This document shows, one piece after another, positions 36,759 to 44,736 of a DNA stretch of 64,000 nucleotides. Numbering within the stretch: position 1 is the stretch's first letter; each line of letters opens with the position of its first letter. Location: assembly GCF_024494725.1 (NCBI RefSeq), contig NZ_JANHDK010000002.1:124001-188000 (forward strand), given 5' to 3'. The position numbers and the translations under genes are program-made. Source of the DNA: Haloplanus ruber. GTDB taxonomy: Archaea > Halobacteriota > Halobacteria > Halobacteriales > Haloferacaceae. Under the pieces are notes generated by a model that worked only from the letters and a program-made list of their open reading frames with translations, searched no databases and had not been told where the DNA came from.

Positions 36759-37466
36759 TCACACGGCGGCCCACGCCAGTAACGCCACGGCCACCAGCAG
36801 GGCGGGACCGTCCCGCCACGTCGGCGAGAGTACGGGGAGCGTGGGATTCCACGCGAAACAGCGGGCCTGCAGGGCAAGCGCGAACCGGTCGGCGCGGCGA
36901 AACACCCGCCGGAGACCGGTGACGCCGATCAGCCTGATCCGCTCGCGGAGGGTGCGTTCGGCGCCGAGGCGGGCGTGCATCGCCGCCCGGACGGTCGCGA
37001 GATCATCGCGAAGGACGGGAAGAAAGCGGAGCACGAACCCGACGCCCGCACCGAGGACGACCCCGATCCGCCCGGGCAACAGCCACTGGATGGCGACCCG
37101 CGACTCGCGAACGCGGGTGGTGCGGATGTAGGCCGTCGAGACGAGAAGGAGGAGGAGAACCCGATAGCTCGCCAGTGCGGGGGTGACGGCGTCGGCGACG
37201 ACGAACCACGGGGCGCCGACGGTCGCTCCCTCGACCAGTGGGCCGGCGACGAGAAAGGGCAGGAACGCACGGTAAGAGCGGAGGCTGGCGGTGACCGGCG
37301 TCGCGGCCAGTCGGCAGACGCCGCCGACGAACGCCGTGAGCGCGGCCAGTCCCGCGGGCGTCGTGTGGGCGAACGCCGCGACGGCGACGGCCGCCTGGAC
37401 GAACAGTTTGCTCCGCGGGTCCAGGCGGTGGACGTAGGTGTCGCCCGCGACGTACCGGAGGTTCAT
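36759..37466 (-). CDS. bioN: ECF transporter T component, biotin type (235 aa)
   Basis: This is the integral membrane T (EcfT/BioN/CbiQ) subunit that couples the ATPase to the substrate-binding S component. The N-terminus MNLRYVAGDTYVHRLDPRSK is the EcfT signature. Helices follow, and the two short cytoplasmic coupling motifs with the Ala-Arg signature appear as MHARLG and LQARCF. The start ATG overlaps the stop of the ATPase gene as ATGA, so the operon order is bioY, ATPase, T component. Pairing with BioY argues for biotin uptake. Confidence 0.88.
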   Translation of the reverse strand: MNLRYVAGDTYVHRLDPRSKLFVQAAVAVAAFAHTTPAGLAALTAFVGGVCRLAATPVTASLRSYRAFLPFLVAGPLVEGATVGAPWFVVADAVTPALASYRVLLLLLVSTAYIRTTRVRESRVAIQWLLPGRIGVVLGAGVGFVLRFLPVLRDDLATVRAAMHARLGAERTLRERIRLIGVTGLRRVFRRADRFALALQARCFAWNPTLPVLSPTWRDGPALLVAVALLAWAAV

Positions 37467-38161
37467 GGAGGCCGGACACCGCGTTCGGCGAGCGCCGCGG
37501 GGTCGGGGTCGGGGTCGTCGACGGCGACCACCCCGTCCGCGAGGACGACGATTCGGTCGGCAAGCGCCGCCACGTCCCGCAGGTCGTGGGTGACGACGAC
37601 GACGCCGACCCCCTCTTCGCGGAGTCCCCGCAGGCGCGCCAGAACGGATCGTCGGGCAGCCCAGTCGAGACCGGTGAACGGTTCGTCGAGGACGAGGTGG
37701 TCGGGGTCCATCGCCAGCGCGCCGGCGATGGCGACACGCTCCCGTTCGCCGCCGGAGAGTTCGTCGATGCGCTCCTCACCGCGGCCGGCCATGCGGACGG
37801 CGTCGAGAGCGTCGGCCACGCGGCGGTCGATCGCTGCACGCGAGAGGCCCAGATTCTCGGGGCCGAAGGCCACGTCGGCGCCGACGGTGGCGGCGACGAA
37901 GCCGTCGCGGGGGTCCTGGAACACCATGCCGACGCTGGACCGGGCGGCGACGGGGTCGTCCTCGACGGGACGGCCGTTGACCGAGACGGTCCCACGGTCG
38001 GGGGTGAGCAGGCCGTTGAACCCGCGGACGAGGGTGGTCTTGCCGGAGCCGTTGGCCCCCGCGAGGACGAGAAACTCGCCGTCCTCGACGGTCACGGAGA
38101 CATCGTCGACGGCGAGGGTCTCGCCGTAGCGGTAGGTGTACCCCTCGACCGTGATCGTCAT
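37463..38161 (-). CDS. bioM: ECF transporter ATPase, biotin type (232 aa)
   Basis: This is an ABC ATPase with Walker A GANGSGKTTLVRG (about 35), Q-loop FQDPRDGF, ABC signature DELSGGERERVAIAGALA, Walker B DHLVLDEPFTGLD and the switch His in VVVVTHDLRDVA. FQDPRDGFVAATVGADVAFG is characteristic of EcfA-type ATPases rather than general importers. It overlaps bioY upstream (4-nt ATGA) and bioN downstream, giving a tightly coupled three-gene operon. Only one ATPase is present, so it should act as a homodimer. Confidence 0.9.
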   Translation of the reverse strand: MTITVEGYTYRYGETLAVDDVSVTVEDGEFLVLAGANGSGKTTLVRGFNGLLTPDRGTVSVNGRPVEDDPVAARSSVGMVFQDPRDGFVAATVGADVAFGPENLGLSRAAIDRRVADALDAVRMAGRGEERIDELSGGERERVAIAGALAMDPDHLVLDEPFTGLDWAARRSVLARLRGLREEGVGVVVVTHDLRDVAALADRIVVLADGVVAVDDPDPDPAALAERGVRPP

Positions 38162-38742
38162 CGGGCGACGATAGCATCGCTGCGGGCGATGGCAACCGTC
38201 GCGGCGATCTTCAGTCCGGCCACGGGAAGGAAGGGGACGACGACGGCCGACACGGCGGCGACGAGACCGATAGCCTGCACCAAGGCGTAGCCGACGGCGC
38301 CGGCGGCGTAGACGACAGCGGTCCCCGCGACCAGCGCGAGGACGAGTCGGGGCACGGGGATGGCATCGGGCGCGGTGAGGCCGTCGAGACCGTGGGCGAC
38401 GGCCCCGACTGTCATCGCCGCGAGCGGAAAGCCGATCAGGAAGCCGCCGGTCGGGCCGAGGACGACCCCGAGACCGGCGTTGCCGCCGGCGAAGACGGGC
38501 AGTCCAACGAGTCCGGCGAGCAAGTAGAGGGTGAACGCCACCCCCGCCCACAGGGGGCCGAGGACGACGCCCGCGAGATACACCCACAGCGTCTGGAGCG
38601 TGATGGGGACGTTCGGGGCGAGCGGGTGGACCATGTCGACCGGGGCTGTCGCGCTCGTCGCGGCCGCGAACAACACGGCACGAGCCACGTTGCCGGTGGC
38701 CTCCTCGCCGACCAATTCGACTGAGTCCGTTGCGGTCGTCAT
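38158..38742 (-). CDS. bioY: Biotin ECF transporter substrate-binding component BioY (194 aa)
   Basis: BioY is the membrane S component that captures biotin. Six hydrophobic helices are visible, with the family motifs VPITLQTLWVYLAGVVLGP, GLPVFAGGNAGLGVVLGPTG and GFLIGFPLAA. The length is standard. The ATG at 38742 is used since it gives MTTATDSVEL and the operator and promoter lie just upstream. It is the first gene of the bioY-bioM-bioN operon, with ATGA overlaps throughout. Confidence 0.93.
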   Translation of the reverse strand: MTTATDSVELVGEEATGNVARAVLFAAATSATAPVDMVHPLAPNVPITLQTLWVYLAGVVLGPLWAGVAFTLYLLAGLVGLPVFAGGNAGLGVVLGPTGGFLIGFPLAAMTVGAVAHGLDGLTAPDAIPVPRLVLALVAGTAVVYAAGAVGYALVQAIGLVAAVSAVVVPFLPVAGLKIAATVAIARSDAIVAR

Positions 38743-38755
38743 ACCGGCCCGACGC

Positions 38756-38787
38756 TCGTAAACCACTTAGTACGTAGTGGTTGACGC
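38756..38787 (-). promoter_or_regulatory. BirA-type biotin operator over the bioY promoter
   Basis: TCGTAAACC (38756-38764) and GGTTGACGC (38779-38787) flank a 14-nt spacer, matching the arrangement known for bacterial and archaeal BirA sites (TTGTAAACC, spacer 14-16, GGTTTACAA). The core AACCACT...AGTGGTT (38761-38782) is palindromic at 9 of 11 pairs. It covers the region where the TATA of a leaderless bioY transcript should be (about 27 nt before 38742), so binding would block initiation when biotin is plentiful. The birA gene is not in the window. Confidence 0.6.
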
Positions 38788-38842: not shown

Positions 38843-40264
38843 TCAGACGATGGGTTCGGAGAGTGTGAGGCGGGCAATCTGTGTTTCGGCACCGGAGTAG
38901 CCGAAGTCGTTGTCGTTGATCAGGATCAGCGTCTCCGGGTTGGGCATCGCGACCCCCTCCAGTTTCGAGGCGAACCCGTCGTGATCGTCGGTCGAGAAGA
39001 CGAGCGTCTTCTCGAAGTGGTCGACGGACAACTCGTCGCCGGACTGACTCGCCAGCGTGGGTTCACGGTCCAAGGCGTCGTACTCCGCCGGAATCGGGTC
39101 GGTCTCGTCCATCGAGACGACGTAGAGTTTCGTCGTCCGACTGACCCGTTCGAGCACGAGGAGGTGGCTTTCGTCGAGGACGCGGAGTTCGCTGATCTTG
39201 ACGTCGCTCTGTGTCGGGTCACCGTTTCGGCTGTCGCGGGCGAAGGTTTGCGGTCGGTCGAGTCGGTAGAGGTACTGGTCGGTGACCGCGTTCTGGTCGA
39301 CGTCGAACTGAGCGATCCGGATGTTCCGCGAAGCCTCGGAGGTGGCGACGTCGGGGTTCGCGAGCGGTGACTGGATGGCGAACACGAGTGATCCCTCGTC
39401 GGGAAGCACGCCGAGCGACTCGATCCCGCGGTTCAGCTTGCGCCGCCGCCAGACGGCCGGCAGACTGGGGGTGACGGGATAGGTCGCCGCCGAGAGGTCC
39501 TCGTCGACGCCCTCGGGGACGTGTCGGTCGAGGACACGCCCATCCGACGCGACGTGGGCGATGCTCGGGGCGTACTCCTCGGCGATCCAGAAGCTTCCGT
39601 CCTGCAGGCGGACGATAGCCTCGATGTCCATGCCGTTGGGGTCGTACGGGATCCGGTTGCCGTTGATCGAGTGTGCCCCCTCGGTGTTGGTCGACTCCAG
39701 CGGGTTGCTGATCGCGGTGATATCGTGTCCGTCACTGTCCTTGAGCGGGATGGTCTCGGTGACGGCTGCCGTCTGGGAGGGGGCCATGCTGTCGAGGCGA
39801 ACGGTGTAGATCGACGGCGTGTAGCCCGGATTGGTGAATATCTTGCCACCCGTGTCGTCGCCACAGATCGACTCGACGCTTCGGTCGGCGACGGCCGGGG
39901 CGTCGCTACAGTTGATATTCGGGCCGCGGTCGGCAATCGTATAGAAGCGGTCGTCCGGTTCGTCGTCGCGGGCGTACGCCCCGCTCCCGAGGCCGACGAC
40001 GAGGTCAAGTGTATTGCCGCCGCGGAACGTGACATCCCCGAGCGAGAGGTACGACTCGTCGACGTCGAAAAACTCGATCTGTGGGTCGCTGATCCGCGAC
40101 GGATCGTGCGCGGCAGTCGAGTCGTCCCCGCCGAGAAGCCCACGCACGACGGACGAACCGACCGTCCCGAGTCCGAGTACCGCCCCGCCACCGAGTAGCA
40201 CGGAGCGACGGTTGGTCGAATGGCTCCCGCGAGTCGCGTCGTCGCGTCGGGTATCGTCTGACAT
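38843..40264 (-). CDS. Tat-exported esterase-like (phytase-type) beta-propeller protein (473 aa)
   Basis: The N-terminus holds a twin-arginine signal: NRRSVLLGGGAVLGLGTVGS (about residues 18-37), expected to export the folded protein. The rest is the esterase-like domain found next to phytases (PF13449 type): RFYTIADRGPNIN, GMDIEAIVRLQDGSFWIAEE, RNRGIESLG-like LNRGIESLGVLPDEG and the final KLEGVAMPNPETLILINDND. Such proteins are beta-propellers with calcium-type acidic clusters. The substrate is unknown. The start at 40264 is supported by a TATA (TATTATAAAGG) about 38 nt upstream. Confidence 0.85.
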   Translation of the reverse strand: MSDDTRRDDATRGSHSTNRRSVLLGGGAVLGLGTVGSSVVRGLLGGDDSTAAHDPSRISDPQIEFFDVDESYLSLGDVTFRGGNTLDLVVGLGSGAYARDDEPDDRFYTIADRGPNINCSDAPAVADRSVESICGDDTGGKIFTNPGYTPSIYTVRLDSMAPSQTAAVTETIPLKDSDGHDITAISNPLESTNTEGAHSINGNRIPYDPNGMDIEAIVRLQDGSFWIAEEYAPSIAHVASDGRVLDRHVPEGVDEDLSAATYPVTPSLPAVWRRRKLNRGIESLGVLPDEGSLVFAIQSPLANPDVATSEASRNIRIAQFDVDQNAVTDQYLYRLDRPQTFARDSRNGDPTQSDVKISELRVLDESHLLVLERVSRTTKLYVVSMDETDPIPAEYDALDREPTLASQSGDELSVDHFEKTLVFSTDDHDGFASKLEGVAMPNPETLILINDNDFGYSGAETQIARLTLSEPIV

Positions 40265-40993: not shown

Positions 40994-41040
40994 GCCATCG
41001 GTGCGAAGACTCTTAGGCGATCCGGGACCAGGGAGTGGCA

Positions 41041-44000
41041 ATGGCGCAGTCGTCGCAAAACCAGGAGCTAATCGACCGGTTCGTCCGGTTCTACCGGAAC
41101 TACTACAGCGACGAAATCAGCCGCCTCGCACAGCGGTACCCCAACGAACAGCGATCCCTCCACCTCGACTACGACGACCTCTACACCTTCGATCAGGACC
41201 TCGCGGACGACTTCCTCTCTCAGCCGGAACAGATCGGCGAGTTCGCGGAGGAGGCCCTTCGAGTGTACGACCTGCCCGCGGACGTCTCGCTCGGGCAAGC
41301 CCACGTCCGCCTGCGGAACCACCCCGAGACGGTCGACATCCGCTCGATCCGCGTCCACGACAACCACGTCGGCCGGATGATCGCCGTCTCGGGCATCATC
41401 CGCAAGGCGACGGACGTCCGCCCGAAGATCACCGAAGCCGCCTTCGAGTGCCAGCGCTGTGGCACGATGACCTACATCCCCCAGTCCGACGGCGGGTTTC
41501 AGGAACCCCACGAGTGTCAGGGCTGTGAACGACAGGGTCCCTTCCGTGTCAACTACGACCAGTCTGAGTTTGTCGACTCCCAGAAGCTCCGGGTGCAGGA
41601 GTCACCCGAGGGCCTGCGCGGCGGAGAGACACCCCAGAGCATCGACATCGACATCGAGGACGACATCACCGGAAAGGTGACCGCAGGGGATCACGTCACC
41701 GTCACCGGCGTCCTCCACATCGACCAGGTGACGGAGGGCAACGAGAAGTCCCAACTGTTCGACCTCTATATGGACGGGGTCAGCGTCGAAATCGAGGACG
41801 AACAGTTCGAGGACATGGAGATCAGCGAGCAAGACAAACGCGACATCGTCGAACTGTCCAACCACCCGGACATCTACGAGGAGATGATCGCCTCTGTCGC
41901 GCCCTCCATCTACGGCTACGACGAGGAGAAACTCGCGATGATCCTCCAGTTGTTCTCGGGCGTAACGAAGGACCTCCCCGACGGGTCGCGGATCCGGGGC
42001 GACCTGCATATGCTGTTGATCGGTGATCCGGGGACGGGGAAGTGTCAGAAATATAACACCAAAATCGTACTCGGCGATGGAACGGAGCGAATGCTCGGAG
42101 AACTCGTCGAATCGCGGCTGGAAGATCCCGTGTCGGTCGACGACGGAGTGTATCAGTCGGTCGACTTCTCCGTCCAGACAGTGACGGCCAGCGGGACGGT
42201 TTCCCGCGGACGGGCGACGAAAGTTTGGAAGCGAGAAGCACCCGATCGGATGTACCGCATTCGCACCAAATCCGGCCGTGAGGTGGAAGTTACGCCGTCA
42301 CACCCGCTGTTCGTTCAGAGTAATCTCGGAATGGAGACCCGGAAGGCCGAAGAACTGACCGAAGGAACACACATTGCACTTCCGAGGCGTCTCGATGGCG
42401 AGTGGGACGACTCTCTCGATATCGATCATTACCGCGTCGACAGCGGGCCGGCAAACCGAATCGACACCCCGAAAAAATTGACCCCGGAACTGGCCCGCCT
42501 ACTCGGATATCAGATTGGGGAAGGACACATAAATGGACCCGAATCGAGCGCGACGGCAACAGTTACGAACGCCGACGAAGCTGTCCTCGACGACGTCGCC
42601 GATTGTCTCGATTCACTCGGCCTGCACTGGTGGCGCAAACCACACCACGACCGTGACGGCGTCGAGATCATCGGCTGTTCCTCGGTCGAATTTGTCGATT
42701 TTCTCAGAGAGATCGAACCAGCAATTCTGGAACAATCGGCCGATCAACGCGTTCCGGACTGTCTGTTCCGCGCCAGCCCCTCGATCAAACGGGAGTTCCT
42801 GAAGGCATACGTCGAGGGGGAGGGACACGTCTCACGAACGGAACGCGAGATCACCGTCGCGTCGATGAGCCAGGAGTTGCTCGAAGGTGTCCGCAGTCTG
42901 CTCGTCAGTCTTGGAATCGAGACGTCGCTCGGAAGCCGTCAAAACGGGAGTTACCGGCTCCGGATCAGCGGAACCGACTTCGTCAGCTACGTCGAAGAAG
43001 TCGGATTCGTCACCGAACGAAAGACGGCTGCGTCGACTGCGTTCACGGATATTTCCGAGAATACGAATACCGACATCGTTCCGGATGTGTCCGAGGCCCT
43101 CCAACGCGTTCGCGAGGCACTCGCACTATCACAGTTCGACTGTGGCATCCCACGAACGACGTACCAGCACTACGAACGCGGCGACCGAAATCCGAGTCGA
43201 GAGAGCCTTCGGACGGTCCTCGATCAGTTCGAAGCGCGACTCGAATGGCTCGGTGAGGTTCGAGAACAGTTGGAAAGTGGGGACTGGAGTGAAATTGAGC
43301 GTCTTCGTCGAGAGCTGAACCTCTCTCAGGACGAACTCGCAGACGCGGCGGGCGTTTCACAGAAGTCGATCAGCAACTACGAGCGGAGTGTCGTGACCCC
43401 CGATGGCGGGGTTACCCGAGACGTCCAAGACGCGGTCCGAGGTCGGATCGACGAAGCGATGGCAGTCGCCGACGACCTCCGGGCACTCCGACGGCTCGTC
43501 GAGAACGATATTTCGTGGGACTGCATCGAGACAATCGAAACGGTCGACCCGGACTACAGTTGGGTATACGACCTCGAAGTCGCCGGGACGCACACGTACC
43601 TCGGCAACGGTATCGTCTCGCACAACTCACAGCTCCTCTCCTACATCCGGAATATCGCCCCGCGTTCGGTCTACACCTCGGGGAAAGGGTCCAGTTCGGC
43701 CGGGCTGACCGCCGCGGCCGTCCGCGACGACTTCGGCGAGGGACAACAGTGGAGCCTCGAAGCGGGCGCCCTGGTGTTGGCCGACCAAGGGATCGCCGCC
43801 GTCGACGAACTCGACAAGATGCGCCCGGAGGACAGGTCCGCGATGCACCAAGCCCTCGAACAACAGGAGATCAGCATCTCGAAGGCTGGCATCAACGCCA
43901 CCCTCAAGTCCCGGTGTTCGCTTCTCGGCGCCGCGAACCCCAAGTACGGCCGGTTCGACCAGTACGAACCCATCGGCGAACAGATCGACCTCGAACCGGC

Positions 44001-44736
44001 CCTGATCTCACGGTTCGACCTGATCTTCACCGTGACGGACCAGCCCGACCCCGAGGAGGACGCCGCGCTGGCCGAACACATCCTGCGGACGAACTACGCG
44101 GGGGAGTTGAACACCCAGCGGACGGAGGTGGCAAACGCCAACCACAGCCAGGCAGAGGTGGAGTCGGTCACGGACACGGTCGATCCGGCCATCGATCCCG
44201 AACTGCTCCGGAAGTACATCGCGTACGCCAAACGCACCTGCTATCCGACGATGGCCGACGACGCGAAGGCGGCCATCCGCGACTTCTACGTCGACCTCCG
44301 TGCGAAGGGCGCAGACGAGGACGCCCCGGTTCCGGTCACCGCCCGCAAGCTGGAGGCACTGGTCCGACTGGCCGAGGCGAGCGCGCGGGTCCGACTCTCC
44401 GATACGGTCGAACGCGAGGACGCCGAGCGTGTGATCGACATCGTCCGCTCCTGTCTGCAGGATATCGGCGTCGACCCCGAGACGGGGGAGTTCGACGCCG
44501 ACGTCATCGAGACGGGAACCTCGAAGAGCCAGCGCGACCGCATCAAGAGCATCAAGGACGTCATCGAGACGGTCGACGCCGAGTACGAGGGCGAGGCGGG
44601 GGCACCGCTCGACGCCATCGTCGAGCGCGCACAGACCGAGGGCATCGAGGAGGAGAAGGTAATGGATCAGATCGAGCAGTTGCGCCGGAAAGGCGACGTG
44701 TACAGCCCGATGACGGACCAGTACAAGGTAGTCTGA
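41041..44736 (+). CDS. mcm: Replicative MCM helicase precursor containing an intein (1231 aa; 703 aa mature)
   Basis: This is the 3'-5' hexameric DNA helicase. N-terminal domain 1-290 has a zinc site (Cys137, Cys140, Cys159, Cys162). The AAA+ core shows Walker A GDPGTGK at 328-334, interrupted immediately before Ser of GKS by the intein; after splicing SQLLSYIRN continues. Walker B is AAVDELDKM, the arginine finger LISRFDLIF, and the C-terminal winged helix ends at TDQYKVV. The exteins total about 703 residues, normal for archaea. An ATG at 41041 starts the protein (MAQSSQNQEL); a GTG six bases upstream is less likely. The gene overlaps the next one by one base. Confidence 0.96.
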   Translation: MAQSSQNQELIDRFVRFYRNYYSDEISRLAQRYPNEQRSLHLDYDDLYTFDQDLADDFLSQPEQIGEFAEEALRVYDLPADVSLGQAHVRLRNHPETVDIRSIRVHDNHVGRMIAVSGIIRKATDVRPKITEAAFECQRCGTMTYIPQSDGGFQEPHECQGCERQGPFRVNYDQSEFVDSQKLRVQESPEGLRGGETPQSIDIDIEDDITGKVTAGDHVTVTGVLHIDQVTEGNEKSQLFDLYMDGVSVEIEDEQFEDMEISEQDKRDIVELSNHPDIYEEMIASVAPSIYGYDEEKLAMILQLFSGVTKDLPDGSRIRGDLHMLLIGDPGTGKCQKYNTKIVLGDGTERMLGELVESRLEDPVSVDDGVYQSVDFSVQTVTASGTVSRGRATKVWKREAPDRMYRIRTKSGREVEVTPSHPLFVQSNLGMETRKAEELTEGTHIALPRRLDGEWDDSLDIDHYRVDSGPANRIDTPKKLTPELARLLGYQIGEGHINGPESSATATVTNADEAVLDDVADCLDSLGLHWWRKPHHDRDGVEIIGCSSVEFVDFLREIEPAILEQSADQRVPDCLFRASPSIKREFLKAYVEGEGHVSRTEREITVASMSQELLEGVRSLLVSLGIETSLGSRQNGSYRLRISGTDFVSYVEEVGFVTERKTAASTAFTDISENTNTDIVPDVSEALQRVREALALSQFDCGIPRTTYQHYERGDRNPSRESLRTVLDQFEARLEWLGEVREQLESGDWSEIERLRRELNLSQDELADAAGVSQKSISNYERSVVTPDGGVTRDVQDAVRGRIDEAMAVADDLRALRRLVENDISWDCIETIETVDPDYSWVYDLEVAGTHTYLGNGIVSHNSQLLSYIRNIAPRSVYTSGKGSSSAGLTAAAVRDDFGEGQQWSLEAGALVLADQGIAAVDELDKMRPEDRSAMHQALEQQEISISKAGINATLKSRCSLLGAANPKYGRFDQYEPIGEQIDLEPALISRFDLIFTVTDQPDPEEDAALAEHILRTNYAGELNTQRTEVANANHSQAEVESVTDTVDPAIDPELLRKYIAYAKRTCYPTMADDAKAAIRDFYVDLRAKGADEDAPVPVTARKLEALVRLAEASARVRLSDTVEREDAERVIDIVRSCLQDIGVDPETGEFDADVIETGTSKSQRDRIKSIKDVIETVDAEYEGEAGAPLDAIVERAQTEGIEEEKVMDQIEQLRRKGDVYSPMTDQYKVV
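42043..43626 (+). mobile_element. Intein in the MCM P-loop, with LAGLIDADG endonuclease and HTH segments
   Basis: The 528-residue insert begins at Cys (CQKYNTKIVLGDG) and ends VAGTHTYLGNGIVSHN followed by Ser+1. Splicing residues are intact: Cys1, the block-B TxxH (TPSHPLF), the penultimate His and terminal Asn. The endonuclease motifs are LLGYQIGEG (about 153-161) and FLKAYVEGEG (about 252-261). Past these lie two helix-turn-helix-like segments, one near 353-395 and a clear XRE-type one (LRRELNLSQDELADAAGVSQ, 421-440). The DNA looks less GC-rich than the exteins. Insertion between Lys and Ser of GKS is a known hot spot for inteins. Confidence 0.95.

Follow-up and report, generated by a model that had tools for sequence, protein, structure and literature searches.

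The window, that is, the whole 64,000-nt stretch of Haloplanus ruber DNA analysed here, contains three consecutive biotin uptake genes, bioY, bioM, and bioN, with neighbours overlapping by a few bases (Table 1). Upstream of bioY, a phytase-like gene in the same orientation has its end at 38843, leaving a 100-bp gap 5′ of bioY that holds the palindrome described below and should contain the bioY promoter. Among named relatives, the nearest one found was a Haloplanus MAG (BioY identity: 87%). Haloarchaeal BioYMN is known from a biotin auxotroph, in a paper whose excerpted passages are silent on its control (PMC3403918). Elsewhere in the window, a 1233-aa open reading frame (41035–44736, plus strand) resembles, by eye, an MCM helicase with an intein-like interruption after GDPGTGK.

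Table 1 Features of the bioY-bioM-bioN region (window coordinates).
Feature	Coordinates	Strand	Basis and remarks
bioY, biotin-binding S component	38158..38742	-	Pfam BioY 2.1e-34; ATG 14 nt past the operator
bioM, ECF-type ATPase	37463..38161	-	ABC_tran 3.5e-29; top NCBIfam match is an ECF ATPase, below cut-off
bioN, ECF transmembrane (T) component, CbiQ family	36759..37466	-	CbiQ 2e-12; NCBIfam ECF_T_CbiQ below cut-off
BirA-type operator (predicted)	38757..38786	-	bioY strand: CGTCAACC-N14-GGTTTACG; 0 mismatches to CGTMAACC-N14-GGTTKACG
Presumed TATA element TACTAA	38767..38772	-	-30 to -25 from the bioY ATG, in the operator spacer; weak match; position inferred from the AT peak

The palindrome in this gap reads CGTAAACC-N14-GGTTGACG (38757–38786). 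Its half-sites, read directly, are TCGTAAACC (38756–38764) and GGTTGACGC (38779–38787) around a 14-nt spacer (38765–38778), exactly where an earlier note on this DNA had placed them. On the bioY strand the full reading is CGTCAACC-ACTACGTACTAAGT-GGTTTACG, with the bioY ATG (38742) 14 nt further on. The BirA-type palindrome at bioY is real and is confirmed here. The window contains a single match to GTAAACC-N10..20-GGTTGAC, and 100 dinucleotide shuffles contain none. When the whole genome was scanned for CGTMAACC-N14-GGTTKACG with at most one mismatch, one place was found, versus none for the reversed control pattern; simple arithmetic with even bases gives about 0.003 expected perfect matches in 3.28 Mb. 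The looser pattern GTMAACC-N14-GGTTKAC with up to three mismatches returned 239 matches in this genome (control: 129), with no second genomic place at zero or one mismatch and, among the matches listed, no site seen directly 5′ of birA.

The arms of the palindrome extend inward to AACCACT-N8-AGTGGTT, the sole perfect copy in the genome. Among the first 112 bioY upstreams listed (of 132), the window alone shows inner symmetry at 14 of 14 positions, and the nearest relative found (L013) reaches 11. This inner symmetry looks peculiar to the present genome, and it is the outer half-sites that are conserved. As a motif of its own, AACCACT-N8-AGTGGTT was rejected as a chance extension (51 matches with up to three mismatches versus 105 for the reversed control).

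The biotin ligase

One biotin ligase was found in the genome, a protein of 311 aa in which an N-terminal HTH_11 domain (residues 8–59, E = 1.6e-12) is followed by BPL_LplA_LipB and BPL_C domains, all above Pfam cut-offs. The helix-turn-helix that the earlier note had named as a check on its BirA reading is hence present, and the fusion of an N-terminal HTH to a biotin ligase is that of a group II BirA. The NCBIfam bifunctional BirA equivalogs also match the protein, but below their cut-offs. From residue 21–22 onward, it aligns across both the HTH and ligase parts with solved BirA proteins, including 1bia and 3v7c, which we take to be E. coli and S. aureus BirA. A second ligase-like gene (L002) was rejected as BirA: it matches lipoate ligase models and has no HTH.

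A BirA match was found in 135 of the 146 Halobacteriales genomes, and the HTH is missing in three of these (G002, G016, and G019), as judged by the reach of the BirA alignment rather than by Pfam domains in each relative. The gene overlapping the birA start (L001:2124-2654, minus strand) ends, by eye, in a biotin-carrier-like part with an EAMKM motif, presumably the biotin-carrier motif. The ligase and its substrate may share an operon at birA.

Conservation of the site before bioY

The bioY gene is present in 131 of the 146 Halobacteriales genomes, and its upstream region was read in 130 of them (131 loci). With up to two mismatches, CGTMAACC-N13..15-GGTTKACG was found 5′ of bioY in 118 of the 130, this genome included, leaving 12 without it; the genomes are related and these counts are not independent. 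The genome left out of the count (G091) has a one-mismatch site (L220), which lies 144 nt before its bioY match. In a scan of 132 bioY upstreams (window and L013 included; spacers of 11–18 nt), 105 had a site with at most one mismatch, compared to none of 660 first-order Markov copies. The first in-frame ATG or GTG follows 13–14 nt past the site in 81 of the 119 site-bearing bioY loci, and the spacer is 13 nt long in six bioY loci read from genus g22 (family f14). Across 113 sites, the half-site positions hardly vary and the spacer does so everywhere save for a T..A core, although these sites were chosen for having at most two mismatches, a choice that favours the half-sites. When matches at any place were counted (at most one mismatch), 116 of the 146 genomes had one or two each, whereas the control pattern matched one place each in eight genomes. 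A match was present in 46 of 57 genera.

Ten of the 128 bioY genomes with an HTH-bearing BirA have no bioY site at two mismatches or fewer. Five of the 12 site-less genomes (loci L026, L032, L036, L079, and L087) belong to genus g14 of family f6. By eye, the bioY operator of this genus is rearranged: roughly 22 nt farther upstream there is an additional left half-site, and the right half-site has been lost or is degenerate. Three of the five g14 genomes have bioB, and in all three the bioB site is normal (one mismatch or fewer), so it seems that the operator, rather than BirA specificity, has changed in g14. The bioY sites of G008 and G010 are decayed (by eye); G026, G038, and G127 lack a bioY site, yet each has one at bioB. 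No site was found at bioY in G019, whose BirA is without an HTH, or in G015, whose BirA has a divergent N-terminus. These two incomplete genomes (63% and 76%) make up the HTH-less comparison and, few as they are, agree with a rule by which operator and HTH occur together. In G016, which has an HTH-less BirA and yielded no bioY, there is a single one-mismatch place (L246) with a GC-rich spacer and, by eye, non-biotin neighbours; it is probably due to chance.

Sites at bioB and other places

A total of 40 loci were examined, one of which (L220) is the G091 bioY site. Among the 39 places outside bioY, 32 are located where a bioB-like gene starts and one lies before a bioU-like gene, whereas for six (L165, L210, L218, L219, L225, and L246) no tie to a biotin gene could be made out by eye, L165 being inside a long reading frame. 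Against the BioB model, whose cut-off is 225 bits, a tested bioB-like member reached 340.8 bits; a tested BioU-like member reached 240.5 bits against the BioU model, short of the cut-off at 600. Based on lists compared by hand, 50 genomes have bioB above the family cut-off, with a site at its start in 40 (at most one mismatch) or 47 (at most two mismatches) of them and no site at two mismatches or fewer in the bioB start of G025, G037, and G057. Together with the counts at bioY, this decides in favour of the BirA reading a further check named in the earlier note, whether the palindrome is found before bio genes of relatives.

In 24 of the 32 loci (e.g., L222), bioB is followed on the same strand by a gene whose start motif is BioU-like, some loci being cut short. 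In G010, a site (L247) precedes a lone bioU-like gene, distant from the bioB of that genome. The right half-site GGTTTACGA at bioB also serves as BioB codons 2–4 (V-Y-E) in 28 loci (L223, L207, L174, and others); because of this double use, the operator and the bioB coding sequence share bases.

No bioB was found above the cut-off in the present genome (best match: 25 bits versus 225), which suggests that it probably relies on biotin uptake. The apparent BirA regulon here is the uptake operon alone, bioB being the biotin-synthesis gene that was searched for.

Promoter geometry and the proposed role of the operator

In archaea, the region about -30 to -25 from the start codon is the place of the TATA element for leaderless transcripts. 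Two sets of promoters were aligned on the start codon: 96 from bioY, selected for having a site no more than 18 nt before the start, and 28 from bioB, selected for having a half-site that extends into the start codon. Both sets showed an AT-rich peak around -30 to -25. At bioY, this peak coincides with the middle of the operator, consistent with the earlier proposal that the palindromic core covers the bioY TATA. At bioB, the operator spans -20 to +9, directly after the TATA element and over the start codon.

A BirA operator and regulon common to bacteria and archaea were reportedly described by Rodionov et al. in 2002. The features found here are like those of that regulon: paired half-sites with a 14-nt spacer, an HTH-bearing ligase, and a location before biotin uptake or synthesis genes, here 14 nt before the ATG of the Pfam-assigned bioY-bioM-bioN. 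As given in excerpts of PMC545781, the BirA consensus is TTGTAAACC-[N14/15]-GGTTTACAA, with listed sites that include TTGTcAACC-[N14]-GGTTgACgA, and GCGTCAACC-N14-GGTTTACGA agrees with this consensus at 14 of 18 positions. Based on these features, the palindrome is very probably the operator of the bifunctional ligase/repressor BirA, and the reading put forward in the earlier note gains support from the HTH-bearing BirA and from the conservation of the site; binding and repression would follow from it.

Two other explanations need to be weighed against this one. A different biotin-responsive regulator might happen to use a BirA-like operator sequence. BioR and BioQ, the biotin-gene repressors of some bacteria, control biotin genes like BirA but belong to other protein families and have other operator sequences. 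The link between BirA and the site is drawn from sequence, ten of the 128 genomes with an HTH-bearing BirA lack a bioY site, and six of the 39 places outside bioY have no tie to a biotin gene, all of which would leave room for such a regulator. The motif nevertheless fits the published bacterial BirA consensus, the BirA of this genome has an HTH, and the great part of the places outside bioY (32 of 39 at bioB, plus the one before a bioU-like gene) concern biotin genes. The 11 genomes without a BirA match also have no site, a weak argument, as they are without bioY too. Taken together, we consider a different regulator improbable.

An inverted repeat in a leader could also act at the RNA level, as an attenuator or terminator hairpin in the bioY leader. 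The arms do pair, and the region folds with a z-score of -2.53 relative to 200 shuffles, four of which fold as well. However, the conserved AT peak puts the TATA element inside the repeat, so that most of the repeat would precede the transcript start, and relatives keep the outer half-sites but not the inner symmetry. A hairpin therefore appears even less probable than a different regulator.

The ligase/repressor cycle of BirA is established for bacteria. If the palindrome is a BirA operator, plentiful biotin would mean that unbiotinylated carboxylase no longer consumes BirA-biotinyl-AMP, which then dimerises, and the two winged HTH domains of the dimer would bind CGTCAACC and GGTTTACG across their 14-nt spacer. 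With the presumed TATA element located in this spacer, a dimer at bioY would exclude TBP/TFB and turn bioY-bioM-bioN off, whereas under scarce biotin BirA would be occupied as a ligase, leaving the operator free and the uptake system to be made. The position of the operator, at the AT peak in bioY and after the TATA element in bioB, suggests that BirA would block TBP at the former and polymerase at the latter. For the bioY site, we infer ligand dependence, binding, TBP exclusion, and repression in this scheme. We regard it as rather likely that one operator is used in two positions, over the bioY TATA element and, at bioB, past the TATA element and over the presumed transcript start and the start codon (with GGTTTACGA encoding V-Y-E), and that the regulon has shrunk to uptake where bioB is absent, as here.

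Earlier publications already cover the consensus, the fact that bacteria and archaea share it, and bioY-type targets, and the window site is a further example of them. Among the listed titles and abstracts of the open-licence literature, none concerned haloarchaeal BirA operators or bioY control, and the two-position operator and the uptake-only regulon of this genome are possibly unreported. The find as a whole extends a bacterial repressor-operator pair, almost unchanged in sequence, to the TATA promoters of archaea throughout much of an order, offers an easily testable case of one vitamin sensor working with two different transcription machineries, and helps to predict which haloarchaea only scavenge biotin.

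According to excerpts of PMC4016012, B. subtilis BirA has the operators bioO, yuiG, and yhfU, with bioY-type targets, and its binding needs biotin and ATP. The H. ruber protein is likewise a group II ligase with a bioY-type transporter gene as target, but the B. subtilis system, as excerpted, has three operators at bacterial promoters and this genome has one. Unlike published BirA operators, the site in H. ruber holds a presumed archaeal TATA element in its spacer and is single in its genome. It also differs from the published consensus in its outermost C/G in place of T/A (CGT..ACG for TGT..ACA), as do most sites in the Halobacteriales that were read. As a pattern match with no mismatch, the TGT..ACA version was found in 11 genomes, all outside Halobacteriales; at one mismatch or fewer, it was present in 31 of the 196 genomes of the phylum, compared to 6 of 196 for the control.
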